From Muricea muricata (Eukaryota; Cnidaria; Anthozoa; Malacalcyonacea; Plexauridae), in contig OY979718.1 of the NCBI GenBank assembly GCA_963855995.1, positions 41,599,559-41,663,558 on the forward strand: a stretch of DNA of 64,000 nucleotides, given 5' to 3'. The notes below the pieces were generated by a model. It worked only from the letters and a program-made list of their open reading frames with translations. It searched no databases and was not told the origin of the DNA. Position 1 is the stretch's first letter. Each line of letters begins with the position of its first letter. Of this stretch, positions 4,690-63,531 are shown piece by piece. The position numbers and the translations under genes were made by a program.

Positions 4690-4694
4690 CTTAC

Positions 4695-5069: not shown

Positions 5070-5099
5070 ATTCACAAGCTGAACTACACTAAAATATTG

Positions 5100-33974: not shown

Positions 33975-34324
33975 CTACACTTGTGAATCTTTACAACTTT
34001 GACTGGCATGTTCCTCCTCGACGTCCAGGACTTGTAGCGCAATATTGTGGCGACTATTCAGTGATGGTCTCACTGTAGAGGTCATTTTTCGTATACGAGC
34101 TAAACTCACGGTACTGCTTGCTGTAGACGCGAAATTCGGGGATGCTGGGGATGCTGGCGAAACACGACCGGATCGCTTGTAGTATTTTGCGAGTAACTTT
34201 AGCTCTTCCATGTGATGTTGCCTGACCTTCCTTAGTCTTGTTATCAGAGCTCTAAAATGCTTTTCCTGCGACGCTTTTGCATCTTCCCGCAAATATTCGT
34301 AGATAGCATACCCATGTGTTGACT
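33975..34324 (-). CDS. Channel gene, last exon: cytoplasmic tail
   Basis: Acceptor TTGTGTAG|AG in phase 1, 115 codons to TAG. The previous exon leaves A, giving AAG (Lys) at the junction. The peptide starts STHGYAIYEYLRED and continues as a basic, probably coiled-coil helix (FRALITRLRKVRQHHMEELK), then a Ser/Pro/Thr-rich linker (SPASPASPNFASTASS), then an acidic end. The last residues KDSQV fit a class I PDZ ligand (S-x-V). It follows the last membrane segment and so should be cytoplasmic. Confidence 0.85.
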
Positions 34325-34940
34325 CTACACAAGCAGAATAATATATTAATAGTGCATAGCACTCAGTAACGCTATCTGACTGACTCTCCTCACAGCGGAA
34401 TTGTTATTTTGATTTTTTTTTCCTCTTGTGCAAAGGAAGCCTTTTCTGCTCAATTACACCAAGACCTTAAGTAGAGATTCAGCCATGCAATCCTTGAACT
34501 ATGGCCTCCCAGCTTCGACGATAAGAGTGCTGACCGACACACCACATATGCTGGTTACAAAACCCTAGGACCGTGCCCGCAGTAATTCAACAAGCACATT
34601 TAATTTCTAAATCGTCGGCTCAAAACGTTAATCGCACAGAATATATAAAATGAACGATAAAAGTCTTTTACAGCTTTTTCATTGATCCAAGCGAGTAAGC
34701 TGTCCGCCATCTTGGATTATCAAGTTACACTGGACATCTTTTTACGGAACGGATCTCCTCCATATATGTCATTTATATTATAGCAGTTTAAACAAGTGGA
34801 ATCGCCTAATATAGACCACAATGCATTGCGACGTGATCACGATAATGCCGCTATTGGTGAAAATCAAATGATAAGTTTTGATCACAAAAAACGAAAACGT
34901 GTTTTCATGCACTGATCAATTGCCATACATAATTAATCAT

Positions 34941-35411
34941 CAGGGACCGCGGAGAAATTTTTGGATTGAGGGGGCCGAATGCTTAGCTTCCCAGGGGCGG
35001 GGAGGGGGCTGGGGCAACAATCGAGTCCCCATTCTTGCTTCGTTCTTTTTCAACTTTTTCCGTTTTTGTTAATTTTTTAAGTGTTTTTCATGAAATATCT
35101 TGCGGTTGCGACGTGTTCATGTTTATTGTTGGGTTTTATTTCGTTCTTTATTAGTAATATAAATATTGGAAAAAATACATGTATGTTATTCCGACACCAA
35201 TCCTTTTTTCCTCCTTTTGCTGGATGTCAGAGTGCGTTTTCCCAAAATCACAGCCAAAATGTTAATGAGGTGCTCTTGACCTGAGCTGTAACGCTACTTA
35301 TTGGAAAAACGTCAAGTAGTCCTGGTTATAATTAAACGCCATTCAATCAATCACAGGAAAATTATTGGGAGGGGGGCAAGGCCCCCGGGCCCCCCTCCTC
35401 CGCGGTCCCTG
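34941..35411. mobile_element. Inverted-repeat element with CAGGGACCGCGGAG ends
   Basis: Begins CAGGGACCGCGGAG and ends CTCCGCGGTCCCTG, about 471 bp. The right end has a further GC-rich run (GGCCCCCGGGCCCC). No clear direct duplication is visible. Intronic. Confidence 0.7.
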
Positions 35412-36082
35412 ATCATTGCTGTCACACGATAGTACTGCAGACTCAAATACTTGCTGCAGGCGGCTATTTTAACCGGGACATCAGGATAAATTTTTTTTAT
35501 AATTCGTGTTATAGCAAAGCAATCTTTTGTGAATTGACATTATTCAATTTCGTTGTCAGGAAAGCAAAATGGAATGTAAACAATAACTCAACCTGGAATA
35601 CTGTAGTGTGACAGTAATCCTTTAAAGCACGTCGACCAAATTTTGATTCATTTTTTACTTCCCTGCAAATAAAGCTTAACTTGAAGCGTCATGTAACGAG
35701 CGTGAATATCTATCTAAGATGGCGAACAGCAAAATATCTCAAGGGTAAAGCGAGATATGAAAAAAATGTGAACAGCTTTTTTGATCATATAAAATTAGTT
35801 CTAATCTTTTTAATGAATGCAACTAACCCTCGTTATATGCACTTAGGTTTAAAATAATCAACTGTATAAGAGAAGAATATTTTAAAATCGGTCTAATTCA
35901 TTGGAATGATACGCGCGCCACCTGTAGGGCATATTGTAAACACTGAACTGGACTATGGAGCTTTGACTAAGCTTTTATTTCCATTCTGCAGGGCATTTCT
36001 CGTTCTTAAAAATATACCTACAATGAATTCAATACTATGGTGTACATGGAGTCAAGTGTTACAATGTGCCCTGCCTGTAGGC

Positions 36083-36216
36083 GGTTATCAATTTATGTTT
36101 CGGTCTCTAATATTATTCTATCCTCAAGTATCTCAACACATAACATGCCTAACCCTAACCCTAACCTCTTCTACCCCTAATCGTTGCCTTAGTTACCGAA
36201 ACATAAATTGATAACC
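36083..36216. repeat. Hairpin with telomere-like loop
   Basis: Arms GGTTATCAATTTATGTTTCGG (36083-36103) and its exact complement (36196-36216). The loop contains CCTAACCCTAACCCTAACC at 36148-36166. Confidence 0.8.
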
Positions 36217-36343
36217 CTGTAGGCACTAAAAAACTGGAGAAAAGCCATTGAAGGAAATCATTTCAAGTATCGCACGGTAAATTCATGCAACATGTGGATT
36301 CATCTTTTCTCACTGCGATTAAAATAACAAAATGCACACTTAC

Positions 36344-36527
36344 TTCTTAGTTTATTTCGAACCTTTACAGCCTTGGCATGATATTTGTGTTGCCAACACA
36401 ATCCAGCGCAAATGCATGCAGCGAGCAAGGACGTTATCACCAGGAGCGACATTTGATAAGCCTTATAGGATGAGTCAAATAATCCCGATTTTTTCTGCGC
36501 CGCTTCTTGCACTTGATTTAGCCCTTT
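36344..36527 (-). CDS. Channel gene exon: end of S2 and last membrane segment (M4)
   Basis: Acceptor TTTCTAG|AAA in phase 0, donor AGAA|GTAAGT leaving phase 1; 61 codons plus one base. The start (KGLNQVQEAAQKKSG) continues the S2 lobe. The hydrophobic run AYQMSLLVITSLLAACICAG is the third membrane segment (M4 in glutamate-receptor terms), followed by positively charged HKYHAKAVKVRNKLR as expected on the cytoplasmic side. Confidence 0.88.
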
Positions 36528-37163
36528 CTAGAAATTTATAACACAAGTTTCATAGGAAGTAAAGATTCCCCTCCATACTACTCACATAATAGTATTTCAT
36601 TATCTGCCACGAAAAAACGAAAGTTTCTGTTAAGGTCAGGTTTAGTTTCACTTCATAGATTAGCCTGATTAGACGTGGGATTAGGTTGAGATTAGACGTG
36701 GGATTAGGTCGATGTTATGCAATGGTGGCCGTTCTCAGTTGGGTAACTATATACGGTCTTCAACCAAGTCATGGCAACGGCCTAAACCAAATGGTGTTAA
36801 AAATGACGAGTAACGAAATTATTGCGTTTAAAACAAGACAGAAACAGAAAGTAATTGTGTATGATCTAAGTATAATTTTGCGGTAACACCACGTAAATTT
36901 ATCATCGCAGTCTTTGATCCGTAAGCTCGGATCTTCATAACATCCGAGTTTAAGGATCGAAAGCTTCCACAAAATTATCTCAGATTCATATTTATCATGC
37001 AAACACAGAAAGAAATCATGAATCTATACTGAAAACCTCAGCATGATTCTTACATAAGCAAATTGCTCAGGACTTGGTTGAAGGCCACATTGGATCATTG
37101 CATATATATTTGACGGAGCTGCTCTGCCTGGTAATAATGATATTTAAATAATTTTTACAATAC
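36528..37163 (-). other. Intron of the channel gene
   Basis: 636 bp. A short tandem repeat GATTAGACGTGGGATTAGGT occurs near 36670. Nothing else seen. Confidence 0.5.
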
Positions 37164-37474
37164 CTGAGTAACAACGTCCGTATTATTTTGAACAAACTCA
37201 AGCAGTTCGTTTGTTCTCAACTTCAAATATTCTTTTATCATTGGGGCTGAGTCTTTCATTCTTCCGGACAAGACAATCCCATAGCCAGCTGGATATTCCA
37301 CTTGTCTAGTTAGCTCAATATCGCCATTTTCAAATAAGTCTTTTCTCATTGCAGCCGCGTACATGTCGAGTATTGCACCTTCTACGCTCTTATCTTCTAA
37401 GGCTTTTATCACTTCATCGACATTCTTGTATGCCTGCACTATATCATTGTAAGTTATCATTAAAATACTATTAT
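37164..37474 (-). CDS. Channel gene exon: S2 ligand-binding lobe
   Basis: Acceptor TTTCATAG|AT in phase 1, donor CAG|GTATTG in phase 0; 103 codons plus two bases. The sequence has the signature of the second lobe of periplasmic-binding-protein and glutamate-receptor clamshells: DNSILMITYNDIVQAYKNV, then DEVIKALEDKSVEGAILD, then EYPAGYGIVLSGRM. The aspartate in GAILDMYAA sits where the ligand amino group is held in the family. It directly continues the 58-nt exon upstream. Confidence 0.9.
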
Positions 37475-38036
37475 CTATGAAAGACCTAAAACGGCATCCC
37501 TAATGCGGGTATGCATGCACAAGAAAAAACCGTCCAATAAACATTTTGTATTATTATTTATTGGAAATATTTCAAGAGTTTTGATTGGTTAATAGCTGTC
37601 GGTGAAATCGTCATATCCGCTTGGTAATTGCCCAAATTTTGGGTTATGACTTCACCGTGGTATATTGAAAACAAATATACGACATTATGAGTCATTTCGT
37701 CGTATATTGAAAAAACAATGTAACACGATATGACGCCACGCTATTTTGTGCGGGTTTTGTCAATACCGGGAAAATACAAATGGCTTCCTCAGAGGAAACG
37801 CCGACCTTTTAACAAATAATAAAACAATAATTAAATTCGGTTCTCACAGGATATGAGAAATAACCTCCGGCAGAAAACACAAACCTCTGCCTTAATAATT
37901 CCTCATATCCTGCTCGGCCTTATTCAATAATTGTTTAATATAGGGCGGGCCAAACGCAAGGTATAGTCACTATACAAGAGACCCACTCTAAACTCATGCA
38001 TCGGAGTGTCAGTTTAGTCTTGCTAATAACACCAAC

Positions 38037-38094
38037 CTTTGCCATTCTGACGTATAGCTTTGCCATATTCCGTAGAGTTTTGTATGGCGGCAAC
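38037..38094 (-). CDS. Channel gene small exon: start of S2
   Basis: A 58-nt exon found by reading the gap: acceptor TTTTAG|GTT in phase 0, donor AAAG|GTTGGT leaving phase 1. It encodes VAAIQNSTEYGKAIRQNGK, the start of the S2 lobe (family pattern: a small-hydrophobic motif, then a helix after a short glycine/serine turn). Phases agree with both neighbours. Confidence 0.85.
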
Positions 38095-38589
38095 CTAAAA
38101 CGAACATTCACTTATTACAACGTTCATTTAGTCGGTTTTGCATCCCAAAAAATGCCGAAAACATTTTTCTACTCTGATAACGCAAGTCGCCAAAATATTC
38201 ATACAACAGAGCGGACAAATATATGATAAAAACTACGAGTGGAGTACAGAAACGAGTAGAAAACAGAAATACAGTCAGAAAGTATAAGGAACGGCTCGAA
38301 TGTAAACGATTATAGGAGTTTAGCAGCTTCTTTTGGTGCCAAAATCTATTAATTGTCTCCGCATTTTTTGTCAGAGCGTGATGAACCGGGCATCATGCAT
38401 CCTTTGTGTACTTCATTATGACTTCCTTTTTGAAGTTAATTCAACTGAGGATTTTCGAACAACTTTGTTTACATATGTTTGAAAATAATCAGCTAAGTAA
38501 TACACCAACGTTTCATTGTATGTTAATGCTGTTCATGTAAATTAAAACACGTTTGTTTTCTGTACTTACCGTTACAAATGTGTACTTAC

Positions 38590-38746
38590 TTTAGCTCCAT
38601 AAATAGTCTTGCGTTGTTTGACAAGAACTTCAGTTATTGAGGTGACCATTAAACTAGTGAGTAATGTGATTATGATGTAACCAACAAGTATCCAGGTGAT
38701 TGCAAACAACTTGCCAGGAATCGTCACTGGTCGGCGGTCACCGTAG
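38590..38746 (-). CDS. Channel gene exon: selectivity filter end and M3 helix
   Basis: Acceptor TCTTTAAG|C in phase 2, donor AAA|GTAAGT in phase 0; 157 nt. The first base completes a glycine codon split by the intron, followed by YGDRRPVTIPGKLFAITW and the membrane helix ILVGYIIITLLTSLMVTSI. GK(L/V)FAI after the filter is typical of potassium-channel inner helices. The exon ends with the basic KQRKTIYGAK linking to S2. Confidence 0.93.
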
Positions 38747-39766
38747 CTTAAAGACATAACGATTGGTGATTATTAAAATATTTATTCAGTTCATTGTATT
38801 GGCGTACAATCAGCCTGGCAATTCGGTCATGCTGTGCAAATTTCAAATCATTATTCATTTATTTATAGAAATTGGTCGTTTTCATGGCTATAAACACGGA
38901 GATATTTGCATAGCATGACCAAACTGTCTGGATTGCCCCCGCTACCGCCAATAAAAATTCAAAAAAGCACATAGTCAATTGTCAAGCTATACATCGTTTG
39001 AAAGCCCTACCATCCAGCTTTCTTCCTGTTTAATTCGAGCAGGTAGGTAGCATGAAAATGAGCTTTTACTGAGTGTGGAGTTGGAAAATCTAACTGGTGA
39101 GATAGATTGAATTTGGTAAAAGCCGCAAATACCCTTTAAAAACGTAAATAATTTCCTTTGGTCACTTTGTGAGTCACTTAAATTGTTGCTCATAAACTGT
39201 TCTAATGTTCTGTTACAAGAGGGTTCGTCCAGAGTTTTGTTTGTTGCGATTTAACCTTGAAATATGAGTTATTAGAACAACTTTGTAACACGTCTGATAT
39301 TCACGTCAAGCCTGTTGCAAGTTTTGAACAAATCATTCTAAACTTGTTGACAACTTGGGAAAAAAGTCCAAAAACAACTTCTATTTAACAAGTTGATTAC
39401 ATTTTGCCGTTGTCTGTTCAGTTATAGATACACGGTATGACGTCATAATGTGGTGAGAACTAAAAAGTGGCTCACGAGCCGCCTAGGTGAGTGGGTCACA
39501 GAACAGCACATTGGTCATGCCTTCGAACTCCACTTCAGAGTGACAATCATTGCATGCCTGATTTCTACATGTAGGAGAAGCGTTTGCATTCCGATTCTAT
39601 ACCAAAAGCTTAAGTATTTTTGCAAAAATTCTAGCTGCTTCATACCAGCTGAGACCAACATGACAAATATGGTTTTGGATGTAATTTAGAAAAAGAAAAT
39701 CGTTGTTTACCAGGAGTGATAAATATATTGTTACAGCTACATATAGAATGTATATTTTAAACCTAC

Positions 39767-39861
39767 CCAACTGTACTAGCCGATATAAAAGCCCACCAAA
39801 ATCCTTCTTTCAATCCTTTTGTAAAGGATAAAGGAAAACTTGTTGGATTGGAGGAACGTTC
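39767..39861 (-). CDS. Channel gene exon: pore helix and start of selectivity filter
   Basis: A 95-nt exon, acceptor TTACCATAG|GAA in phase 0, donor GTTGG|GTAGGT in phase 2. It encodes ERSSNPTSFPLSFTKGLKEG then FWWAFISASTVG. Spliced to the next exon this gives FISASTVGYGDRRP, the full potassium filter. FWWA before the filter and the ER.SNP linker after the first membrane helix are typical of GluR0-like bacterial channels and two-pore-helix potassium channels. Confidence 0.93.
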
Positions 39862-39961
39862 CTATGGTAAATGAGACAATCTTATGATTAATTGTTGCTG
39901 CAGCGAGCGAGCCTGGGGCGAGCGAGCAAGGAAACAATCGTAATTTGTATATGGGGGTGAA

Positions 39962-40124
39962 CAGTAGCGTAGCCAGCCCGAGGATTTAGTCCCGCTATGC
40001 AAATATTTCATGTTCATTGACTGTGAAAACAATGAATTTCTAAAGAAATGAATAATGATAATAACTTGAAAACAACTTGAAATTTGCATAGCGGGACTAA
40101 ATTGTGGGGCTGGCTACGCCACTG
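39962..40124. mobile_element. 163-bp MITE with 8-bp duplication
   Basis: Ends CAGTAGCGTAGCCAGCCC and GGGCTGGCTACGCCACTG; exact duplication GGGGTGAA at 39954-39961 and 40125-40132. hAT-type by target length. Lies in the intron upstream of the pore exon. A partial relative is at 29451. Confidence 0.85.
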
Positions 40125-40132
40125 GGGGTGAA

Positions 40133-41768
40133 GGTCTCGATTTTGCTTTATGAACTAAAACATTAGCACCGGCCAGACAATTATAATGCGTAAGGAAAAT
40201 GAGCTTTAGTATGGCATAATAATTTTAATTCGGTGTGATGGATGTAGAAGCTCGGATTCTTAAACACTTTTGCTTCAACTGGTTTTATGATGATAAAAGT
40301 AGCCGAGGCATTGCTATTGTTTTCAAAGATCGTCCATATCGACGGACGTCAGTATTACCGTGCACGTGAATATTTTTGTGTTGCTTAAACTTCATTATAA
40401 TATCAAATGATACTATACTTATTGGACGTTATTTTATATTTTCAGTCCACTTGTATTACACTAACAATCTCGCTAACAATCTGTTCTCTATGTTATCAAT
40501 ATAGCATGTCCACTTTCTCTGGCACTCCTTACTACGACGCACGTATAAACAAAAACTATACAGTTTTAACTCACATCATATTATCAATGTGTTCGCTTTG
40601 TTTTCATGACTACGTATATGGTAGCTACGTCCCGTTCATAGAGCTGTCGCTCATGTATTTCTGGCTATTTTTTTTTCTCAACTAAAGTTACTAGTTTAGA
40701 TGTATTACAGTTCGACGGAAGCTGAAACAGTCCGTGACAACAAAATATGGTTGATACAGGAACATTGCGTTTGTGGTCAATATTCGCCTAATTTTTTATT
40801 GGGGCTCACATGTCCAGCAACTTTAAAGCATTGGACGGTATTTTATATTTTCAGTCCACCGCCAAACTTTACAGTTTAACTAACTAACTAACTAACTCAG
40901 GATTGCTTCTAGCTGTGATGAAGGACTCTGTTCATATCTCCTGCATCAAAATTTAGTCTATCGTGGAAATTGTCTATTGTAAGTTAGCGTTTTCTTGCGA
41001 GGTAGCATTCCCTACCCCATCGGTAACCTAGTTTAGTTATGTACCCTGGCAAAATTTTGATTTCTGCACAATGCCTTTCTATTATAATTTCAAATTACAT
41101 ATCAGTTGAGCAAAGATTTATGAAACAAAAAATTCTTCGAGCACACTGGAGAAAAATTTGAAAATTCATACTGTAGAAATGTGTTTCATTACCATGCACT
41201 AACCACAGTTCGTTACAAAACCCGCATAATACCAACGTCATCATACAAGATTTTCCTGTTAGCGGGCTAGGAAATACACAATTGGGGAAAATCATAATGC
41301 ACTCTACTTCCAGTTGAGGTCCTTCTGCGCTATGACTTGTCTTTTTTCCGGTGCCCAACGTTCTGATGTAAATACGTAATTTAGCAACAGCAAAGTACAT
41401 CAAGGATTGGTAATTATACTTGGCGGTGCATGCATCGCTGCTTAGCGTCCTGCTATTAAATGTCATCTTAGCTTCAACGCGTTCCTTTACTCAAGAAAAT
41501 ATTTATTTTCCTGGTGTTTGTGTACACCAGCAATTTTTCATACATGTTGCGAATATTAAGACATAAAGACAATGGAATGTCGGACAATGCCGGACGATGT
41601 TGGATGAAAAATTTAAACAAAGTCAAACTAGATCGAACATCATCCACCATAGTGTGCAAACGAAAACAACAGAGCGCGTCTACTAAACATTTTTGGATGA
41701 CGTTTGCAATTTGAACAGCATCTTGTCTGCGTTCAGTGAACAGGCTATATTAGAGAGCATGTACTTAC
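40133..41768 (-). other. Intron of the channel gene
   Basis: Contains two copies of a TATTTTATATTTTCAGTCCA segment (about 40428 and 40839) and a CTAACTAACTAACTAACT run near 40878. No exon needed here: flanking phases match (phase 0). Confidence 0.5.
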
Positions 41769-42256
41769 CAAAACCCAAATAACTATTCCAGCAAGAAGCG
41801 ATAAGATAAAAACAAGAAGCAGCAATGGAATCGAATAAACAGATGCATTAAGAAGAACATGGGCTGTTGATGGGATGTTTTTCACAGTAAAATACACTGA
41901 CCCTGGTGTTTCCACTACAGAAATATAGGGAAACACTCCGCCATAATGGGTCATGTACTTATTGCCTTGAATTGGGAAACTAATATCCACGTCGTTATTG
42001 ATGTTGTTTAATACTTCTTGAAAACTGTCTTTTTCCAATGTTTCCACTTCACGGCGCCTTCGAGAAGTATGCTGATCACACCCTGGACGATAACAGGCTT
42101 TAGTCTTGCCGTGACCGTTTGAACATACTCCACACATCTCCAACATCATTTCAACCGGGAGAGAGAATATGCCACCTGGTTTCAACTCATCACCATTGGT
42201 ATACGGAGGAATATTCCACCAGTTCACTTTAAGATATTCAGGACACCTACATGTTT
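41769..42256 (-). CDS. Channel gene exon: S1 lobe with Cys-rich insert and M1
   Basis: Acceptor TCTTACAG|AA in phase 1, donor TTG|GTAAGT in phase 0; 162 codons plus two bases. It opens TCRCPEYLKVNWWNIPPYT, then GGIFSLPVEMMLEMCGVC, resembling the first strand and helix of a clamshell S1 lobe. A Cys-rich insert (CGVCSNGHGKTKACYRPGC) and a polybasic SRRRRE follow. NNDVDISFPIQGNKYMTHYG and VFPYISVVETPGSVYF match the end of S1. The arginine that grips the ligand carboxylate in glutamate receptors is not at its usual place. The end SIPLLLLVFILSLLAGIVIW is the first membrane segment. Confidence 0.85.
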
Positions 42257-43491: not shown

Positions 43492-43800
43492 CTCCAATAT
43501 ATTTTTTGCTCTTTGTTCCGTTTTTAATAGTATAACCAAACATCACTATTTCATACTTCGATCCAGGAATAAGATTTTCAAGTGTTGTCGCATAACGATT
43601 TCCTCTCACGCGCAGTGTCTGTTTTTCTCGTTTGCCAGGCTCCACGTCTTGTCCGTTTAACCTGATCGCTGTGTACTCGACGTAATACCCGCGGATTATG
43701 CCGTTAGCTTGTTCCTCGGGAATTCTTTTCCACTCCAATTCCAAGGTTGAAATCGAAGTCATATTCTTAACTACAATGCTCGACGGCGGAACATCTGGTG
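43492..43800 (-). CDS. Channel gene exon: fibronectin III module 6
   Basis: Phase 1-1 exon of 103 codons. Core features: TLELEWKRIP (strand B Trp), IIRGYYVEYTAIR (strand C), then PGSKYEIVMFGYTIKNGTK (strands E-F with the family Tyr). It is the membrane-proximal module and is spliced directly to the S1 exon. Confidence 0.9.
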
Positions 43801-44490
43801 CTAAAAGTCCAAAATAAAATTGAACGAGATACTAAATGAGATCAATAATCTTATTATCATTATTTGGTTTTTAATAAATCATTTGATAAAATACATATCA
43901 AATTTACATTATCTATATCAATACATCAATATCCTAATATCATCCTATTCATTATTTACATACAATTTATACTTAAAAATCAGTCTATTAAAATAGCTAT
44001 TTTTGAAGCGTTCTGTGTTAACGGTTATAAAGTGTTCTGCTTATGGCCTTAATAAATTCTTGTTAGAGAGCTTAACATTTGCAATGCCACAGCTCGACAA
44101 CTATTTTTCCAAGCGAACATTCTTTCATAGAAGACATTTATAACATATACAGTTTTGTGATCGTATGCAGGAGTATTTTCAACTACGTTCTCATGCTTAT
44201 CACAACGTCAAACTAGGCATTAATTATCACGCCCCGCGCAACAGGGAAGCATGTTATGACGTGAACAGTGTTGTTGAAGTCAATCTTATAACAGACACCC
44301 TGTTGTTTCAGCGAAACCAATCAACTGTTTGCAAATTTATTTACTAAAACAAGCTTGAAAGAACTATTCAACTTGCAAAAATAGTTTAATATTGATAAAA
44401 AATGCTGGATTACTGCATGCAAAATTTCCTGCAAAAATCATTACCGTAATTACCGTAATCTGCGCAAGTCTATAAATAAAAACGACCTAC

Positions 44491-44805
44491 CGTCTTCTTT
44501 AGTCCTGATTCGGTAACCCTCAGGACTATTCAGTTTACCATGACCTTTAGAGTTCACGGCTCTAACCCATATTGTATATTCCGTATACTTTCCTAAACCT
44601 TTCAGATATGCAGGCACCTCGTTTTCTTGGACTAACTTATCCCGGTATCCAACTAAGTGAGATAAATCGCGGGTTTTTCGTACTGTCAAGTTATAGCCAA
44701 GTAATATTCCATGAACGAAATTTGAGGCGACTTTTTTCCAGTGAATATAAATACTGGTCGATGTTTCAGCAACGCCGTGAACGTCTTCCGGGGACCGTCC
44801 TGGTA
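44491..44805 (-). CDS. Channel gene exon: fibronectin III module 5
   Basis: Phase 1-1, 105 codons. Starts at TATCTAG|TA and ends GACG|GTAGGT. Core: SIYIHWKKVA, GILLGYNLTVRKTRDL, YTEYTIWVRAVNSKGHGK with a regular fibronectin III spacing and a final TKED linker. Confidence 0.9.
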
Positions 44806-45675: not shown

Positions 45676-45978
45676 TATGTTCATCAGTGCGAACAGTTTT
45701 TGTAGCAACTTTACCAACTCCTGGTCGAGTGTAGCCACCAACTGTAATTTTATACTGCCAATAATAAAACAAATCTGTAATCTTGTATTCTAGAGTGTTA
45801 TCTGTTACTAGAAATCTTTTGACCTTTCTTTTCGCTAAACGATAATCCAACGCGATGTATGTCAATTCATAACCCAAAAGAATGCCATATTCGGTTTCAC
45901 TAATTTTGTCCCATTTTATGTATATACTACCGGAGCTCGCGTTTTTTGCAACGACAATTTTAGGAGCAACTGGAGGGA
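45676..45978 (-). CDS. Channel gene exon: fibronectin III module 4
   Basis: Phase 1-1, 101 codons. Begins PPVAPKIVVAKNASSGSIY; core SIYIKWDKISE, LLGYELTYIALD, YWQYKITVGGYTRPGVGK. Confidence 0.92.
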
Positions 45979-46488: not shown

Positions 46489-46785
46489 CTCCTTCTTCCG
46501 TCCTTACTTTAACAAGTGGCGAGAATGGTCCCAAACCAACTTTGGTATAAGCAGCAACACTTACATTGTAGAAAGTCCAAATTGACAACCCTGATATTAC
46601 GGTTTGAAGAGTTGTAGCTGGTCTGACAATCTTTGATTTACTCGTGCTTTCTTCAACAGTGTATGTAATGTTATATCCCAGTATGATTCCGTTTCTGGAA
46701 TAATTGTCTACCTCTTCCCATTCGACAAACAAACTGGTGGAACTCTGATTGCGAGCACGGACGTTCTGTGGATGACTGTCTGGCT
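46489..46785 (-). CDS. Channel gene exon: fibronectin III module 3
   Basis: Phase 1-1, 99 codons. Core SLFVEWEEVDNYSRNG, LGYNITYTVEES, FYNVSVAAYTKVGLGPFS; ends RTEEG at the donor GAG|GTAAGT-type site. The most canonical of the six modules. Confidence 0.93.
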
Positions 46786-48130: not shown

Positions 48131-48418
48131 TATCTTCAAGGGTGTACACCGACATCTTCGAACTTTTAACACCGCAACCTGGAGTTGTCCTCACTGCGAC
48201 TTGGATGTGGTGTTGGGTGAACGGTCTAAGATCCAGTATAGTCTTTTGTAGTTCATAGTTTCCTCCTGTATCATTGATAATCTCGGTTTTGTTGTCTATG
48301 TAGACACAATAACCTCGATGTATGCCATGTAAATACTCTGTATCAATAGGTTGCCACGTGACATACAATGACTTTGAATTTGGTGAAGTTACATTGACTG
48401 CTGGAGCTTTACTCGGCA
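48131..48418 (-). CDS. Channel gene exon: fibronectin III module 2
   Basis: Phase 1-1, 96 codons. Begins PSKAPAVNVTSPNSKSLYV; core SLYVTWQPIDTEYLHG, IHRGYCVYIDN, HHIQVAVRTTPGCG. Two cysteines (GYCVYI and PGCGV) could form an uncommon extra disulphide. Confidence 0.9.
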
Positions 48419-48905: not shown

Positions 48906-49199
48906 CATCTTCAAGTGTCTTCTTTATTGAAAACCTACTTGGTACCCCAGTGCCGTTTGCCGTGGTCGGACTAACAGTTATCCTGTACCATGTAAATTTC
49001 TTAAGGCCCGTTAAGTTCATGCTGTCTTGAACTGACGCTGGTACTGAAACGGACTGGAATGCTGCATTATCATCAAGTGTTTTATAAAAGACAGTAATAC
49101 CCGTGAGATTTTCAGAGCGTGAAACATCAATGCTCCACCCTACCGCAATACTGGTCGAGCTTAAAACACGTGTTGTTATGTTCATGTCATTGGAGAAAA
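48906..49199 (-). CDS. Channel gene exon: fibronectin III module 1
   Basis: Phase 1-1, 98 codons, acceptor after a run of T (TTTTTTTTTAG|TT). Core STSIAVGWSIDVSR, LTGITVFYKTLDD, FTWYRITVSPTTANGTG. The first of six FN3 modules, directly after the SEA-like segment. Confidence 0.88.
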
Positions 49200-51979: not shown

Positions 51980-52192
51980 GTGGACAGGCCAATACGTTGC
52001 AAGTTCGAATGTCTTCGTATTTCACAGTGCAATTATCCAAACCATACGACTTGTCAGTCTTGTTGCACGTGCAATTTCGGCCGTTAAACTGTGGAGGTGG
52101 ATTAGTACAAGAACGTGTTCTCTCTCTATATCCAGTGTTGCATGGCTTGCTGCAGAATGAGTAGGGAGACCAGGGTGTTAGTCCGCCATGAA
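51980..52192 (-). CDS. Channel gene exon: thrombospondin type 1 module E
   Basis: Phase 1-1, 71 codons. Begins HGGLTPWSPYSFCSKPC; central RERTRSCTNPPPQFNG; ends NVLACP. Eight cysteines instead of six, with a roughly 12-residue insert containing CTCNKTDK: an atypical TSP1. WSPY replaces the usual WSxW. Confidence 0.9.
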
Positions 52193-52239
52193 CTGTGAAG
52201 AAAAGAGAAAAATTAGAAATGACACCGAACAAGATACTA

Positions 52240-53475: not shown

Positions 53476-53858
53476 TACATACCTTGTGGACAATGTTTTT
53501 AGGGGTAGAGTGTAGAAAACAGTATTTTATATGTTAATTTAGAATGTTTCTTACACACGCGCGCGTTTCCCGTGTGTCCAAACTTCAAGACCGGAGAGTA
53601 TCGGAATATAACTGCATGATATACGTTTATAGTCATTAAAAATATGAAAAAACAACTCAGATTTTGTGAAGTGTTGGGGGGGGGGGGGCACTGCGGACAA
53701 CAAATTCGATTGAGCACGCCAACTCATGAACAAATGCAAAGTATCTATTATGTGTCCACTCCAATGATTAATATCTTACTGAATCAAAACCAATCTCGTC
53801 CTGGCAAAATAAAATCATGTAAACAGGCTCCTAAACTGGAAGGGAATCTTGCACTTAC

Positions 53859-54035
53859 TTGGACAAGGAAAAACATTACAATATCCGAGTTCATTCGTAA
53901 AATTCGCAGGAACACAATCAGACCCCCCATGTTGTGGTGGCGGATTTGTACAGTTCCTGTAGCGTGTTCTTGTTCCGTTGCCACACCGCTTTGTACAGTT
54001 TGTCCAGGCTGACCACTCGGTAAATTTACCATCAA
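53859..54035 (-). CDS. Channel gene exon: thrombospondin type 1 module D
   Basis: Phase 1-1, 59 codons. DGKFTEWSAWTNCTKRCG, TRYRNCTNPPPQHGGSDC, GYCNVFPCP; six cysteines. WSxW and CTKRCG are the C-mannosylation and O-fucosylation type motifs of the family. Confidence 0.94.
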
Positions 54036-56234
54036 CTGAAAAAAAAAATAAAAATACTCGATCACTTCGTCTCAAATGTAAACAAGGATATTCTCAGTTC
54101 CAAGGAAATGTCCTTAAAGACCATCACTGAGCAAGGCAAGGGGTCAATACGAATGGTATACTAATTATGGAACAATCTTTTCAAGTCAAAGCTTTGTTCT
54201 AGGGAGATGCCTATTCCCTAAAACATAAATGAGGGCCTTAGATATTACAGTGAAGTCCCGTCCTACTGTGGACCCTCTATAGTGTGTCCCAGAAAAGTTT
54301 CCCATTAGAAATGACACTATTGTTGTTAAATGAGCGTTATTATGCCTCTGAGAATTTAAATTAAATTCTACATGTAAAACGAACAGCAACACAATAATTA
54401 CGTCAAATCATAACAATGAAAATACTTCTGCCATTCATGCAGACCATTCGTTTAAATTCCCAAAGGCATAGTAACACACATCTAATAACAATAACAATCT
54501 ACTCTACGATTAGAGACGTGGATAAGCGCACAATTTCCACATAATCGTGCATTTTGTGAAGACAGCACCACATTGACAGAATGTGTAGACCGACCTTTAC
54601 AGTATATGAATATCAGATATGGAGGCATTTTTGAAATTAATGCTGAAAGCCTAAAATTCTGGCATTTTAATGAATTTCTATTACTGATAAAAAATTTTAA
54701 AGACAAACTATGAGTTATATGACTGAAATAGAGAAAAAACTGTCTATAGAACATTAAAGCAGTTTTTGTTTGCCTATAGCCGTTCTTAAGTTAATCTGTT
54801 TTGAAATTGCAGAAAATCGATTAAAAAATAGGTGCAAAGACTGGGACTAACTTCAAATAGTCTTTAATAGATCGAAGCTCTGGAAGTATTTGACAAAACA
54901 AAAAACTGCTTTAATGCTCTACAAAAAATTAAATCAAATTATATTGTCAAACCGGGTGTCTCAAAAAAAAGTATCGGTGTTTAATTTAATATAATGTAAA
55001 AACTACACCAGCTAAATACGTTTTATGGTACTAGGAACAGAGTTGCAAAAAAGCCACGGGTATGCGGGTATTACCCGTGAGGAGGGTTTCCTAAATAGGC
55101 GGTTAGTGAGGAAGGTTTCATGTCAACACACTACATAATGTATCCTAAACATTGTTATAACAAAAAATTAATAGATGATGATCCATTCCAGAAATCATGC
55201 ATTCGTTCTGAGAAAATAGCAATTAAACCTCATTCTCATCTTCAGACTGGAAAGCCCAACTTTACAACATTTTGAGGAAGGTTCATGCAAACTTTGAAAT
55301 TTTGCCCGGAGGAAGATTGAACGTTTTTTGCAACTCTGACTAGGAAAACGCTGACTTAAATTTTGGTAGAGGGCGCTTGAACTTCATTCAGTATTGAACG
55401 AGATATAAATGTTTTAAGCTAAAGTTCGGTTGAAAATTGGCGAAAAAATTTACTAAATCGGCCTATCAAATTTATTCGAAGACATTTGCTATTATTCCGC
55501 GAGTATTGAAAATTTTGAAGAAGCAACCTTTAATCTCAAGGCGATTTGCCCTGGCCGCTTCGATTTCCTTATCTGGCGATTTGCAACTTGTTTCTTTAGG
55601 GTTATTTGAAGCAAAAACGTCCCGCATGAGCTCCAGCCAATAAATTTGAGACAGCTCCGCCAGGCAATTTTAGCGTGCCAAAGATTGCATGCACAAATAA
55701 TCCAGAACTCTCTTGATGGTATTGTTAACAGAACACCAGGTTGTAAACAATATATGTTCAAAGGCAGCTTTTTCAGATGAATAAATCATCTAATGTGTAA
55801 ATATCTTTATCGTGTCTTGTGTTGACAGGAACAAAATTAAATTAAATGTTAATCTGATAGCCCGATTTATGGTAATTTTAAGTACTTTCAAAATTGCTTC
55901 TTTGAAATGAAACTGTAATATCTAATTCAATATTGCTTAAATATCTTCACGTTATATATCAAAATTTAATTGAGGCCTTTCGAAATTCAGGGAAGTCTAT
56001 TTCAGCGAAACAGTTCGTCCAGTTTTAGCGGTATAACAAATCAAACATCGATACTCCTTTTTGAGAGACCTGGTATATATCAAATATTATTATTATTATA
56101 TATATGTCAAATTAACATATTACACCACGTAAGTTTATTATCGCAAAGGTTTAGATCCGTAAGCCCGCATCTGCATCAGCGCTAATAATAATGCGACTAA
56201 TTTAAATTCAAACTGTGATTCAAACGTCCCTTAA
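54036..56234 (-). other. Intron of the channel gene, left part
   Basis: AT-rich, no exon seen; contains the hAT-like MITE at 55038-55338. Confidence 0.5.
55038..55338. mobile_element. hAT-like MITE, copy 2
   Basis: Ends CAGAGTTGCAAAAAAGC and CGTTTTTTGCAACTCTG; exact 8-bp duplication ACTAGGAA at 55030-55037 and 55339-55346. Same family as 6089-6413. Confidence 0.9.
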
Positions 56235-59200
56235 GGTGGCTCCCTACAGTTATAATGTTTCAGTTCACGTATTGTTTGAAGGTCTACTATTTCTTTTTCG
56301 TGAAAGTTGTGGCGTTGAAACTTAGCCACCACATTACCATGATGTTAAACATTTTTAATGATGAAAACTTTCGTTGGTTCATTTCGTCTCCATGGCAATA
56401 TGGCGTTATGAACATGTCATATTTTTTATGATCTTTACATCGTTTATTAATTTTCCTTCGGTGAATTTTTCTAATTTTTTTTCTGATGACTTTTGGTTGA
56501 TAAAGGAATAACATGATAAATTTTGAGACGAATTGTAAAGGCAGGTTCTGAGATATTCACGAATAACTAGTACAACAATTCCATCTTATAGAATTTTTTG
56601 AAATTTTGATATGTTTTACTGCTTGTTATACCGAGAAAATGTGCAAAATTAAAAAAAAATTCACCGAAGGAAAAACGAGAAAAACAGTCCTAAACTCTGG
56701 TTGTGACAAAATATCGATTCGACATGATCGCTATTTGCGCATGCGTGTAAATTATAATGCGTGGAAAACGCGTGTTGTTCAGTTGGCTTTTTTAGTAATT
56801 TTATTTTCGTGTTGTTTGGCACATATGTTTGAAACAGATATTTTTTACTTTTTTGAGACGAAAACACAAGATAATGTTCAAAATACGAAAAAGCAAAACA
56901 CTATAATCCATTGAATTGACCAATGGTTCATTATATTCTTTTTTGTCGAAAAAATATGTGTAAATATGCCTAAAAAAGCACCAAAACATTCAACTACGAC
57001 TTGAACAATTCATCCAAAATAACTATCTCTCTATTGAATTCAACAGGTAAAGTACTACATATTAAACAGGGTTGAATGGCAGAAACTGTATATGCTTCGC
57101 CGACAATTTGAGAGTGCTTTTGAAGACAGCATAAGATAGCATTTTGAATTTTGATTGGCAACAATTTTTTAGTAATATTATAAACAACATTGCTTCAAAA
57201 TAAATACTCAGAAACATATTTAAATATATATTTAAAAAACTGGTTAAAAACATACGTACTGTTTAACTTTTCAAAAAGTCAAGAAAATAATGAAGAATGA
57301 TCATGTTTTGGTCACTGAGCTTTACTAATATATCTGGAGGCAAAGAGTAGAGACTACAAAGAGGGACCACTTCAGCCAAAAAAGCGTAAGGTGCTGTCGT
57401 GATGATTCGTCATGGGCGCCATGTTCCTAGCCAGTGCCCTAAACAGAAGCATTTCCCCCCTGAAATATTAAAAATGGTTACTAATACCGGGAGGATATGC
57501 TTCTGTTTAGGGCACTGGCTAGGAACATGGCGCCCATAACGAATAATCACGACAGTACCTTTCGCTTTTTTGGCTGAAGTGGTCCCTCTTTGTAGTCTCT
57601 ACTCTTTGCTGGAGGAGCGGCTCGGTATGAAAAAGTGTCGCCAAAAACATGGCGGATTTTGGCCTTTGCTGACGCCATATGGTTCCTCAGCCTACAGGTA
57701 TTTACCACTGACCAACCGCGATCCCGAGCTTTCAAGAAAACATTCGCCCCCCTGTTTTTTTTTCAAAAAGTTTATGGCTTGGTTGCTTTTGGGGAAAAAA
57801 TCGAAGAAAATAATTTTTTTTCGCTAGTGCACGCAAGGATTTGTAAAAATAATGTGGAAATGTTTCTTCTAGCAGGTAAGACTTTCGTAATTTTCAATTT
57901 TATATTGTTTTACTTGCTAAGTTTGCATTTTGATTCGTGAAGTTTACAGTGCGTAAAATTTTTTGTCAAATGCTAATGCAAAATCTGTTTATTACTTTAT
58001 TTATTGGGTAAATCCGTATAAACAGTTTTGTCTTCTGCATCAGGCACTGACTTTTACTTTAATAGAGCTGTTTTTGATGTTATTTATATAGACAACAAGT
58101 TTTCTTTGGCGAATGTTTATAGTCGTGTATCCAGGATTTAAAGTTTGCCCACTTGCAGTTCGGCACTGAAATTAATTATACCACTTGATGGTGTGAAACA
58201 ATCTCTCTGTGCCTGACAAAAAAATCTATGCCTCTGGGACCTCTGTTGGCATAGTAATTGTAGATTGATGTGTAGGTGGACAATTAATTCAGCTTGTTTT
58301 TGAAATGCAATGTAGTGTTGTCGGTGGTGCATGAAAGATAACATTTTGGGCATGAGGAAAGATAACATTCATGTCTACACAATATAATGTACATTGTGCT
58401 GTTTTTTTCTTTTTTGAGTAATGTGTTGGGTAAGATGCATTATGGACCTCATTTCCTATTTTGCTGTCTAACACCAGATTGTTATTTATCATGGGGAGTG
58501 CTGGACACTCAGTGGTTTTAATTGTTGCCTTACATGTTTCTATGCATTAATTGAACACAAAAAAGGTAGTAAATTTGTTTCTCATTTTATTGCAGATTTT
58601 AATGTGATGTACCAAGAACTAGAGCAAACATTCCTACTGTAGCATATGTATTTTACCATGTACAGCCAGCATGGATATATGTCATATATATGTAATATGT
58701 TGTGCAGTATAACTGTTTTCTTCAAATGTTGAACTATTAATCTGTTATCAATACCACATCAAAATTTAGAAGAGATCAGAAATCAAAGCCCATTTGGACA
58801 ACACAGTGATAGTTATGTCATTATCATAATAGTATACAGTCTAGTTTTAGGCATTATAATTGTAATTTCAGAAAACACCTGCACTAGCAATGCAGAGATG
58901 AGAGATTGATGTCATCCTCTCAACCAATAGATAATTTAGCATTTTTACTATACAGTATCAGCATAATATAGTATCCTCATCCCACTAAAGGAAGGGATAC
59001 ATTACTCAAGTGGAGTTAGGATTACTTTTGCTAAATGTAGTGTTTTTCTTCAATGACTCATTGTAAGTTGAAATTACTAAACCTTGAATTTTTTCAATTA
59101 AAATAATACAACTATGAAGTGTATCACTGTGGATTGGTTTTGTAGTAAACAAAAATACATTTTTTAAACAGTTGTTCACAAAAGTCAAAAGCAGTAGAAA

Positions 59201-60470
59201 TCATAAGGGGGAAAGAAGGGGAATGCACAAGATTGATAATGCAGAGATGTGAGCTTCATCCTTTCCACCCAATTGGGGATTAGGCATTAATACTGTACTT
59301 TTACTGTCAGCAGTCAATTCCCTCACTCCATACCATCTATGTTGCATCCATATTATAATATTCTTGTCTGGAGTATTTATCTCTGTAGAGTATTGGTAGT
59401 GAAAAATTATATCTTACTTATTTAAATAGTTGCAAATAATACATCTTTCAGCTGTATTGTAGTGGAATAGTCAGATTATATACTGCCATTATTACTGGTT
59501 ATTCAAAAAAACGTAAGCTTAAACGGGGGAAAATGAGAGAGAAGCAAGCATGCTTGAACGTTGTGAGCAAAATTATATACAATATCATGCACAAAAAATA
59601 CTTCAGGAGACACAAAAACTTGCATGTAAAATGCAAAACATTTTGTAAAATGCAAGACTTTTCTGCCATCTCCAGTAAACTCTAAATATTCAGGACAGTT
59701 AAGAAACAAAAGCCTTGATTTATACACGTTCACATCAAAACATGATAGCATGTAAGCAATTTTAAAAACATTAAAGCAAGATTGTAAAAACAGGTAAAAA
59801 CATAACCATATAACAAATGTTGATGTGCAACAAAGCGGACTTAAAAGACAAAAATACTCGTTGCTAATAATACGTTATACTCAACAATTTTAGCTGGAAA
59901 TATTGTCTTCCTCGTGAATATAAACTGCAAAATTTTTCGACTTTATAGCAATCCAATTGTCGCTTGAAATATTGTTTTTGCCAAATATTTCTCGGTTTTT
60001 TGTCCTTTCCTGGCTGCAATAACTTGTAAAACTTGTAAATATGTTTTTCAAAAGTTAGTGAAGCGTCCAGCAAACATGAAAAAAGCTTTTAAAACCCCCA
60101 AAATTTACAGCGAAAACTAAAAGACAAAACAAAATTTTGAAAAAAAAAACAAAAGGGGGGTGTAAAAGATGAGCCTGCTTTACAATTGAGCCCAGTCAGT
60201 GGTGGATCTGGCGTCAGCAGAGGCCGAAATCCGCCATGTTTTTGGCGACACTCTGATTACTGAAGCAAGTATAGGAGCCGCTCCTCCAGATATATTAGTA
60301 AAGCTCAGTGGTTTTGGTACATAAAAGCACTCAGAAACAAGTTCTGTTGCTCTTGTTTTAAAAATTTTGCCGAACTACGAAAATCCCACGCGAAAGTCGC
60401 GAGGATGACGTCTAATCTCACTGATCAATATAAATCATTCGTAAACTGTATCAAACTGTAGGGAGCCACC
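56235..60470. mobile_element. 4.2-kb element flanked by TTAA
   Basis: Starts GGTGGCTCCCTACAGTT and ends AACTGTAGGGAGCCACC, with TTAA at 56231-56234 and 60471-60474. The TTAA target suggests a piggyBac-like element. Second, longer inverted segments inside (about 57312-57675 and 60215-60325) share TTTACTAATATATCTGGAG and GTCGCCAAAAACATGGCGGA. No transposase frame is recognisable. It sits in the intron between TSP1 modules C and D. Confidence 0.78.
57340..57609. mobile_element. 270-bp hairpin nested in the TTAA element
   Basis: Begins GCAAAGAGTAGAGACTACAA and ends TTGTAGTCTCTACTCTTTGC; arms about 110 bp, with ATGGCGCCCAT-type sequence near the middle. The 5-bp duplication TGGAG at 57335-57339 and 57610-57614 shows it inserted after the host element had formed. 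Confidence 0.88.
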
Positions 60471-60525
60471 TTAAATAGGCAAAATGTCGTGATTTGTATG
60501 CTTGCGTGATTTGAATGTTTTTTTT

Positions 60526-61165
60526 TTAAATGGTTAAATCAACCACGTCAAATCTAACTAGCAAAAAGGTTCTAATTAATTCATGCGCGCGCAAAGAAGC
60601 AAAAGAAATCAATGCCATGGTAAAGAGAGCGCGCCACGTACTATCCAGTGGCTTACCCTCCTGATCTATCGTACTATGCTTCTCAATTTCAGTTGATTGT
60701 CTCATTTTGCGAGAGAAATTATGATTATCCATCGCTAAAATGGTCGCTTCATTCCATTTTATGCGATGGTCATCAGTCCTTGAGTGTTTAGCCACGGCTG
60801 ATATTTCGAGTTCGGCTTTCTCGCAATTAGTCTTATGTTCTTTAAGACGTAATGAGAGATTTCGGCCAGTCTCACCGATGTAAACCAAACCACATTCACA
60901 AGGAATGCGGTACACACCAGATTTCTTAAATTCATTAACTCTATCCTTATGTGTGCCAAGAGATCGAAACAATTTGTCTTCACTAGAATTGTATACCTGC
61001 ATGCCAATATATGGTAGACTGACAGAAGACTGATATTCAGTCTTTTCGCGTACGCTTCATGGTGTTTTCATAGCATTGTCTATGAATTTTTTTCCTAGGA
61101 TAACCATTTATTTTTAGAACGCTTCTTAAGTGTTCTAATTCACATCCAATGTTACTTACCTCACA
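60526..61165 (-). pseudogene. Penelope-like element fragment, GIY-YIG endonuclease
   Basis: Minus strand shows GVYRIPCECGLVYIGETGRN (the GIY-YIG core), SLRLKEHKTNCEKAELEIS and AVAKHSRTDDHRIKW, followed by the helical tail. Upstream, the end of the reverse transcriptase (LRSVLKINGYPRKKFID) is visible but cut by a stop near 61060. Penelope elements pair this endonuclease with a telomerase-like reverse transcriptase. The body of the polymerase is absent. Intronic. Confidence 0.8.
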
Positions 61166-61533
61166 AATTGTTTTTGCTCGATTTTAATTTAGTTTTTAAC
61201 TTACTTTTACGTTATGTAACTCATATTTGCTTTTAGCTTCCTTGAAATTTTAACATTTTTTCCCAAATAGAAATTTACATTAAAATATCAGAAATTTTGA
61301 ATATTTGGCTTCCCGCATTAATTTGCCAAATGCCTCCATGCTCATAGTTGTCTCAAAATCTACACATCCTGGCATTTTGGTGCTTTCTTCACAAAATGTA
61401 CAATGCTTCTACATATCCGGTCAACTATATGCTCTTTCCGGGAATTCCATTTTTGGCCTATATTGCAGATGAGAAATTATAGTCTATTATGCAAATTGTC
61501 CATTGATGTGGTGAAAGAAATTCATCATCTTAC

Positions 61534-61710
61534 CTGGACAAAAATGAGCATTACAAGATTCAATCTGACTGAAGTTTCCAGTACAGTTCAAACCACCGGG
61601 CGAAGGGGGAGGGTTGGTACATTTACGTTTTCGAGATCTTACACCACTATCACAACTTTTTGAACAAGGTTTCCACCAGGACCAATCTGTCCAACCAGCG
61701 ACATGAGTTT
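61534..61710 (-). CDS. Channel gene exon: thrombospondin type 1 module C
   Basis: Phase 1-1, 59 codons. VAGWTDWSWWKPCSKSCDSG, KRKCTNPPPSPGGLNC, ESCNAHFCP; six cysteines. Confidence 0.94.
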
Positions 61711-62182
61711 CTAAAAAAAACAAAGAAGTTAATTTGTTTAAACACAATGAAGGCATTCCTTCAATATTGATTTTTCAAACATGATTATTATATGCACATT
61801 AATTGAGATTTATATGGAAATTCGCTGAAACCGAAATGAGGTTGGTTGGAAACCAATTAAAACACATATATTTGCAAGATGCTATTTGCTGCTAAGCTAA
61901 CTTGCAGCAAGTCGGCAAACATTAAGTTACATTATCTCTGCGTTTCACAGACTTGATGCAGCTTTACGAAGCCTGCACTGACGGACTTGATCCAACTTGA
62001 TGACAAACTTGCAACAAGTCAATTAAATTATTGTTATTGTCAAGGCCGCCTGTCACTAACTAAAATAATAATAAAAATGTTAATAAATTCTTTTATTGAT
62101 TTTTCCTTCATGAATTTTATAATGAGGCATCAAAAGTTATGAAGCAGAGAACACAATCTACAATATACAAGTATAGTCCAAC
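61711..62182 (-). other. Intron of the channel gene
   Basis: AT-rich, no feature seen. Confidence 0.5.
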
Positions 62183-62365
62183 CTTTGCAAGGTTTAGGAT
62201 CTTCTTCACGACAAAAGGTCGTTTCCTTTTCCTCTCCAATACATTTCTCTCCCGCCGCTTTAGGATAAGGGTTGTTGCAAGTTCTGTGACGTTTTTCCTC
62301 CTGATAACCACATTGACTCAGGTCACAAAATGACCATAGTGTCCACTCAGACCAGCCACCATCAA
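62183..62365 (-). CDS. Channel gene exon: thrombospondin type 1 module B
   Basis: Phase 1-1, 61 codons. DGGWSEWTLWSFCDLSQCG, HRTCNNPYPKAAGEKC, FCREEDPKPC; six cysteines. CDLSQCG departs from the usual CSxxCG. Confidence 0.93.
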
Positions 62366-63375
62366 CTATACAATATTTTGTGAAATTTATTGGTAAAGTG
62401 CACATACAGCTTTTGGGGCATATTATTTTGTGACATTAAGGCATTTTAGAAGGAAATGTAAGTCAAACTTCATCTTAGTGGTGTCACCAGAACTGACGCT
62501 ATCGAAGTTAACGAAAATTAGTTTTCCTTTGTTTCGTGCTTCAAAATGACTTTGCTTGTCAAATTTAAAATGGCAGCATTTGCAGATGATATTTGCAGAG
62601 ATATTCTGGTGGCTCACTACAATCATAAAAACTGTGAAAATGGGAGATTCGAATCTGAAATTGTTATTGCTAGTTAAGGTTGATTTAAAAAGAAATTTAC
62701 GAATTACCACCCCTACCCCTATCCCAATTAAAACACTACTTTTGGTTCTAAACATATTGCTCTAAGCTTTGTTTCATGGCCACCATATGAAATTAAAGTA
62801 TTGGACATGAATAAACTTTACAGAAAAACTTAGGCGAGAAACCTTTTAAATTCGTAATGTTTCATCTACCAAAATGCTATGTGGTAAAACGCTAACCAGC
62901 GAAATACTAGAATATATTTCAAATATTATACGCCACGAATGTACCGGTTCTTTGGTCCCAATCTCGGTCAAACTCGCGATCAGATGGAAGAACGATACAT
63001 TTATGGGCATAATATAACGATACATGAAACCAACAGAACACCACCGAAATATTGCCATCCTTGTATTAGGGTATACACTAGCGATTCAGATCAAATCGAG
63101 ATAGCTTAGAGCCGAATCAGGTCAAGTGTGGAGAGCTAAAAACGAGTCATGATGGAGCTCGTTATAAGTTTTTGATCGATCCCTAGTTTTTTGGTAGGCC
63201 TGTCATTGTGAGTTACATTGTTTAACTAACCGAGGTTTTGTGCAAATGTTGAAAATCAACACAACAGTCTTGCAACGACCGAGATCAATTTAAACTAGAT
63301 TAAAGTTCTCTGCAGGCATGCCAGTGCTAGCACTGCACAAAACTAAACTTAATAATAACCGTTTTTCGTACTAAC
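62366..63375 (-). other. Intron of the channel gene
   Basis: About 1 kb, AT-rich, no exon or repeat boundary seen. Confidence 0.5.
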
Positions 63376-63531
63376 CATTGCAAATCTCAGTATTACAATC
63401 CTTGCTTATATTCTGTAATCCAGAACAATTTACGTTTGTGGCGTTCAGGCAATTACGTATTCGGTTGGTTTTTCCTTCGCAATTGTTTGAACAGTTTCCC
63501 CATGAACTCCACGAATGATAAAAACTGTCGT
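63376..63531 (-). CDS. Channel gene exon: thrombospondin type 1 module A (first in window)
   Basis: Phase 1-1, 52 codons, acceptor TATTTTTTAG|AC, donor AATG|GTTAGT. SFYHSWSSWGNCSNNCEG, RIRNCLNATNVNC, SKDCNTEIC; six cysteines and several Asn-x-Ser/Thr sequons. It starts in phase 1, so at least one more exon lies upstream, outside the window. Confidence 0.9.

Follow-up and report, generated by a model that had tools for sequence, protein, structure and literature searches.

Ionotropic glutamate receptors (iGluRs) are thought to have descended from potassium channels that became joined to a binding domain. Hemicentin, UNC5 and ADGRV1 are adhesion or matrix proteins built from thrombospondin type 1 (TSP1), fibronectin type III (FN3) and Calx-beta types of module, and to our knowledge none of the three terminates in a potassium-type channel. 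AvGluR1 of the rotifer Adineta vaga is described as an animal receptor that combines a eukaryotic glutamate-receptor architecture with a K+-channel signature, in a paper that also covers GluR0 and cites Janovjak 2011 and Chen 1999 (PMC12332018). Here we analysed a stretch of 64,000 nucleotides from the octocoral Muricea muricata (GCA_963855995.1, contig OY979718.1; C3:41599559-41663558), referred to below as the window, and searched the 453 Mb genome for its relatives. Between positions 63531 and 33975 its minus strand carries an array of TSP1 and FN3 exons followed by the exons of a channel with the filter TVGYGD. We consider it likely that these exons form one gene of a family expanded in this genome, and that it would encode a giant adhesion-type ionotropic receptor with a GluR0/iGluR-type channel, a K+ filter and, probably, a ligand other than a plain amino acid.

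The gene model was built from stop-to-stop frames, splice scoring and a check of the joined exons. Eighteen exons of the window joined in frame to give 1,449 open residues, with AG acceptors at 18/18 sites and GT donors at 17/17, and the only stop codon was the terminal TAG at 33977-33975. The two alternative frames of the same chain contained 85 and 106 stops. Reading from 63531 to 33975, the modules were ordered as five TSP1, six FN3, an S1-like lobe with M1, the pore, M3, two S2 exons, M4 and a tail (Table 1). The filter was encoded as ACA GTT GG|C TAC GGT GAC (TVG|YGD), with a phase-2 intron at 39767/38746 interrupting the motif. An initial annotation made from the letters alone had joined the TSP1/FN3 exons and the channel exons into one gene and expected no stop codons at the junctions, and both proposals were supported, as were the order of the five TSP1 and six FN3 modules, the S1-M1-P-M3-S2-M4 layout with its TVGYGD filter and the gene end at exactly 33975. 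Its list lacked the short S2 exon at 38094-38037, and the gene does not start at 63531; the first codon of the window chain is split with an exon farther upstream.

The gene seems to continue upstream of 63531. On the same strand we detected 11 further TSP1 exons (ten plus one), four Calx-beta exons, two of them above the cut-off (6.6e-11 and 1.3e-8) and two below it, and an EGF exon (EGF_3, 3.1e-9), the modules reaching about 23 kb beyond the last one in the window. These exons would belong to the same transcript as the window exons, and the first exon of the gene was not found among them. Two GIY-YIG-like frames scored just under the cut-off, one inside an intron of the gene (window 60529-61056, minus strand, E 1.7e-4) and one upstream (L146, 3917-4909, minus strand, E 4e-4), and they resemble what we take to be remains of Penelope-type retroelements.

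The same exons recur across the genome. The search scored the best candidates only, and the family loci are counted as exon matches rather than as proven genes. The M3 exon matched at least 29 places at E <= 0.01, counting the one in the window, and a Lig_chan search added four loci on contig C16 with YGD at the same position, bringing the M3 exon to at least 32 loci besides the window. The profiles located the pore exon in 25 distinct loci, of which 24 end it in TVG and one in TIG. They located the M3 exon in 29 loci, with YGD at its start in 28 and FGD in one. In all 25 loci with both exons the two lay on the same strand and were separated by at least 66 bases, and the intron inside the filter is therefore a mark of the family. 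The closest comparison was a paralogue on contig C10, with six FN3 and 13 TSP1 exons within 20 kb, another five TSP1 exons and one for EGF farther upstream, and the same channel exons plus M4 after the FN3 array. Best matches to the window gene fell in rank order for 6/6 FN3 modules and for the last eight of 15 TSP1 modules, using 13 of the paralogue's 18 TSP1 modules. No counterpart of the window tail exon was detected within 4 kb downstream of this paralogue. A further member (L149/L016) showed 12 TSP1 matches, then six FN3 matches, the last cut by the end of the locus, and then the S1M1 exon. One open frame of 738 codons (L149, 3180-5393, plus strand) holds all twelve of these TSP1 matches, as against a separate exon for each module in the window gene. 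Another member (L150/L022) had 11 FN3 and zero TSP1 matches in the 10 kb read.

These loci also bear on whether the window holds two genes, a TSP1/FN3 adhesion gene and a separate channel gene adjoining it on the same strand. The introns of the window gene measure up to 7.5 kb and could conceal gene ends, and 21 of the 28 family loci had no FN3 match within 3 kb, both of which would suit a division. Against it, the FN3 matches of the remaining seven loci were all in the sense direction and upstream. In addition, a phase-1 acceptor was located 5 nt before the CxC of the S1M1 exon in 10 of the 12 other loci with a placeable start (L017 and L031 lacked it), and because of this acceptor the S1M1 exon requires an exon upstream. 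Taken with the module order repeated in the C10 paralogue and L149/L016, the acceptors and the position of FN3 make two separate genes highly improbable.

To place the channel, the family alignment was scanned against a prokaryote-only collection and the best 80 loci were retained, among which 69 proteins were 350-400 amino acids long. Six of the best-80 bacterial proteins were given to Pfam and all six carried SBP_bac_3, Lig_chan and Ion_trans_2 above cut-off, with SBP_bac_3 spanning the pore. For profile comparison, 25 bacterial proteins were hand-picked from the 71 of the best 80 loci that passed a length filter, and 15 of 17 assembled family rows were used, as in the column counts and the tree (L012 and L018, both partial, were excluded). 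The family matched the bacterial proteins over the whole channel (E 8.7e-42), the pore (E 6.6e-42; 38% identical, with the same TVGYGD filter) and S2 (E 3e-8), with mismatched controls at E 0.33 and 3e-4, and S1 was colinear with bacterial S1 within the whole-channel alignment. These profiles demonstrate, at the level of sequence, homology of the pore and S2 with GluR0-type bacterial receptors, in line with the GluR0 likeness noted initially. The octocoral gene differs from the GluR0 type in having M4, a tail, a giant modular ectodomain and cysteine pairs in S1, and in lacking the S1 arginine; the two-helix-only layout of that type was absent, an M4 exon being present in both the window gene and the paralogue.

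The gene shares with metazoan iGluRs the membrane layout with M4, and Lig_chan matched 13/13 family members scanned at E <= 1 (best 1.1e-10). Examples of iGluRs from the same genome differ in that their M3 reads YTANLAA or FTANLAA and TVGYGD is missing, whereas the window M3 lacks the metazoan SYTANLAAF motif and its pore is of the potassium type. A tree of 46 rows (15 family, 25 bacterial and six glutamate receptors of the same genome; 94 columns, midpoint root) recovered the family as one group (98/78), adjoined by a bacterial protein of an Olavius-associated proteobacterium (L046; 97/94). Family and bacteria together (40 rows) stood apart from the six glutamate receptors (99/97), a split that the shared filter itself favours. 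The family may have come by transfer from bacteria or by retention from an early ancestor. Two other assignments were rejected, that of a metazoan glutamate receptor by the M3 motif and the tree, and that of an ordinary Kv or two-pore channel, which matches to the Protein Data Bank (PDB) had prompted, by S2, M4 and the whole-channel match to the GluR0 type.

In Pfam tests on the window protein, TSP_1 was above cut-off in four of five modules, fn3 in five of six and Ion_trans_2 on the spliced channel. The domain search proposed initially thus succeeded for these three families and failed for PF00497 (SBP_bac_3), which at E <= 1 matched neither the window protein nor any of the 13 family members scanned. 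This absence is one of several results that weigh against a single gene with a GluR0/iGluR-type channel. For the window sequence, PF00060 (Lig_chan) stayed at 13.9 bits (E 0.047), below its cut-off of 30.8, and in S2-only Pfam scans of 12 members neither SBP_bac_3 nor Lig_chan was found, one member matching SBP_bac_11 at 0.0062. Compared with bacterial S1, S1 alone gave E 0.0033 (probability 9.6%) and the mismatched control of S2 against bacterial S1 did better at 3e-4; because S1 alone proves nothing against that control, its homology rests on its position in the whole alignment. The full profile matched 462 PDB sequences, and the 60 listed were all potassium channels, mostly Kv (best Shaker, 5e-15, via the pore), and glutamate receptors were not among these 60 chains. 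The S2-only profile gave 12 PDB matches up to E 10, of which the top four were binding-protein types by name and included the bacterial glutamate receptor homologue 2pyy (E 0.025), but these matches were weak (0.013-0.14). On the side of the gene structure, the M3 acceptor had a poor splice score (-1.0), one upstream TSP1 exon (73034) lacked a good phase-1 donor, and the first seven of the 15 TSP1 modules were out of line with the C10 paralogue. The TSP1 exon at 62365-62183 also had weak sites at both ends (acceptor -1.8, donor 0.8). In a further difference from metazoan iGluRs, ANF_receptor had no Pfam match in the pieces of the window gene scanned.

The ligand site was evaluated by counting alignment columns. 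In receptors of this type the S1 arginine binds the alpha-carboxylate of the ligand and the S2 aspartate binds its amino group. The arginine was found in 0/15 family rows (three gapped there) compared with 22/25 bacterial rows, and an arginine within three columns of the site in 2/15 and 23/25, respectively. The preceding threonine was kept in 1/15 family rows vs 23/25 bacterial rows, in a stretch where the alignment is weak. The S2 aspartate was present in 15/15 family and 25/25 bacterial rows, and the aromatic residue after PP in S1 was Y in 14/15 family rows and F or Y in 25/25 bacterial rows. These counts give no support to a glutamate-like ligand. Since the arginine is lost and the aspartate kept, the channel is probably gated by something other than a plain amino acid. 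An ordinary GluR0-type glutamate-gated K+ channel, in which the clamshell would hold an amino acid by different contacts and the ectodomain would do no more than position the receptor at matrix or cell contacts, is possible but somewhat doubtful. The invariant aspartate and the conserved aromatic residue agree with it, and AvGluR1 offers an animal precedent for joining glutamate-receptor architecture to a K+ filter (PMC12332018). It fits poorly with the missing arginine and the mostly lost threonine, and a glutamate receptor of the same genome (L123) retains ITADRE. The loss of the arginine would also suit a contact- or tension-gated K+ channel whose clamshell no longer takes a small ligand and in which S1 and the M1 linker are pulled by the TSP1/FN3/Calx-beta rod. 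In the window gene, as in seven other S1M1 loci, FN3 immediately precedes S1 (L010 with L039, L015, L016, L022, L023, L024 and L027). An aspartate invariant in 15/15 rows goes beyond the needs of a bare spacer, and we regard this explanation as unlikely.

The filter columns were conserved, with T, G, G and D kept in 15/15 family rows and Y in 14/15 (one F), suggesting that the pore is probably potassium-selective. Family members were otherwise divergent, 11/12 being 26-33% identical to the window row (alignment A1 held 13 of the 17 assembled rows, without L012, L014, L018 and L024; the S2 alignment A4 held 12 hand-picked rows). Such divergence could point to a non-conducting adhesion receptor or a decaying copy in which the channel fold is kept only as an anchor, and at least one locus looks broken. 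This locus, L020 (C10:10861005-10861163), has an FN3 538 bases before M3, its S1M1 and pore exons were not found and its M3 exon is identical to that of L019; it is probably a broken copy. In the window gene, however, every exon is open and the filter residues are kept. Synonymous divergence (dS) between the window gene and the paralogue was saturated, and differences at codon positions 1/2/3 are reported instead: 0.37/0.23/0.67 for S1M1 and 0.38/0.15/0.73 for M3. Differences at third positions were roughly three- to fivefold more frequent than at second positions, a pattern as under purifying selection at the codon level, and loss of conduction or decay is very unlikely. A cluster of divergent members (L032, L033, L036, L133, L134, L137 and L139) lies at C16:1.57-1.75 Mb, and the M3 exons of L133, L134 and L137 were also above the Lig_chan cut-off.

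We favour a receptor whose membrane part would be an S1-M1-P-M3-S2-M4 channel, probably a tetramer. Its opening would let K+ leave the cell and hyperpolarise it. The extracellular rod of at least 16 TSP1 modules, Calx-beta modules and six FN3 modules, which resembles TSP1/FN3/Calx-beta adhesion and matrix proteins in its module types and phase 1-1 exons, probably tethers the receptor to matrix or a neighbouring cell; a role in adhesion or matrix tethering is plausible from the modules. The putative clamshell, which lacks the carboxylate-holding arginine and keeps the S2 aspartate, would probably take a ligand other than a plain amino acid. Contact could conceivably be coupled to the channel, as the initial annotation proposed for contact and ligand binding together with potassium flux. 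A bolder and distinctly tentative proposal is that the more than 30 loci form a cnidarian family of contact sensors, GluR0-type K+ channels freed of their amino-acid ligand and gated by or through the TSP1/FN3/Calx-beta rod, with at least some ectodomains differing as in a recognition repertoire, so that contact would lead to hyperpolarisation.

The initial annotation knew of no characterised animal receptor with a potassium filter under such an ectodomain. The adhesion ectodomain is indeed the new part, but a potassium-type filter in an animal receptor is already described, since AvGluR1 pairs glutamate-receptor architecture with a K+ filter; the description consulted makes no mention of a TSP1/FN3 ectodomain, and the likeness is one of description rather than of sequence (PMC12332018). 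In the open-access literature, at the level of titles and abstracts, no paper on such a protein was found, and databases may well contain entries of the same layout that are not yet characterised. One animal appears to keep and multiply potassium-filter receptors beside ordinary glutamate receptors, some of them with adhesion ectodomains, and it could serve as a test bed for the change of ligand and ion in glutamate-type receptors. The gene is also a candidate for connecting adhesion to membrane potential within a single protein, in an animal whose nervous system is simple, and contact with matrix or another cell might there lead directly to electrical silencing.

Table 1. Exons of the window gene in the direction of transcription (positions in the window; phase given as in-out).
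Feature	Position	Strand	Phase	Evidence
TSP1, 11th of 15 in main array	63376..63531	-	1-1	Pfam TSP_1 15.4 bits vs cut-off 21.6; TSP1_spondin E 6.2e-4; best paralogue match is TSP1 no. 9, in order
TSP1, weak splice scores	62183..62365	-	1-1	Pfam TSP_1 4.5e-8
TSP1	61534..61710	-	1-1	Pfam TSP_1 2.8e-11
TSP1	53859..54035	-	1-1	Pfam TSP_1 7.4e-9
TSP1, last preceding FN3	51980..52192	-	1-1	Pfam TSP_1 6.7e-8
FN3 module 1	48906..49199	-	1-1	Pfam fn3 1.7e-8; diagonal match to paralogue
FN3 module 2	48131..48418	-	1-1	Pfam fn3 9.4e-6; paralogue match in order
FN3 module 3	46489..46785	-	1-1	Pfam fn3 1.2e-13; paralogue match in order
FN3 module 4	45676..45978	-	1-1	Pfam fn3 4.1e-5, 24.2 bits vs cut-off 25; paralogue match in order
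FN3 module 5	44491..44799	-	1-1	Pfam fn3 1.9e-11; paralogue match in order
FN3 module 6, adjoins channel	43492..43800	-	1-1	Pfam fn3 4.8e-9; paralogue match in order
S1-like lobe and M1 (S1M1)	41769..42256	-	1-0	20 distinct loci including window; S1-only homology to GluR0 type weak
Pore loop, ending GFWWAFISASTVG	39767..39861	-	0-2	Splice and profile matches
M3, beginning YGDRRP	38590..38746	-	2-0	Ion_trans_2 3.7e-12 on spliced channel
First S2 exon, VAAIQNSTEYGKAIRQNGK	38037..38094	-	0-1	Profile match and joined-frame check
Second S2 exon, invariant Asp (AILDMYAA)	37164..37474	-	1-0	Profile comparison, column counts
M4	36344..36527	-	0-1	Paralogue M4 36.8% identical, E 2.5e-10
Cytoplasmic tail with stop codon 33977-33975	33975..34324	-		Splice scoring and joined-frame check

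Elsewhere in the window, the minus strand carries an open frame of 442 codons at 22553-23878 with BTB (6.6e-21), BACK (2.4e-8) and PHR (2.6e-21) matches, adjoined at 21067-21990 by a reverse transcriptase stretch (RVT_1, 4e-16) that is probably part of a retroelement. An ankyrin-repeat stretch (Ank, 1.5e-11) was located at 4683-5123 on the minus strand and a tandem array of about 11 copies of a 31-base unit at 26683-27057. An Rfam scan of the window gave no match. In the genome, a search for GFP returned one match (E 9.2e-12) with three internal stops. Mitochondrial mutS is a mark of octocorals, and a contig of 19,292 bases (C74) carries both COX1 and a MutS_V gene, which supports the cnidarian source assumed in the initial annotation. 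ARAGORN detected no tRNA in the COX1 locus. A near-full copy of COX1 with one TAA was also located in the large contig C1 (L153, C1:38414782-38416095) and probably represents mitochondrial DNA copied into the nuclear genome.

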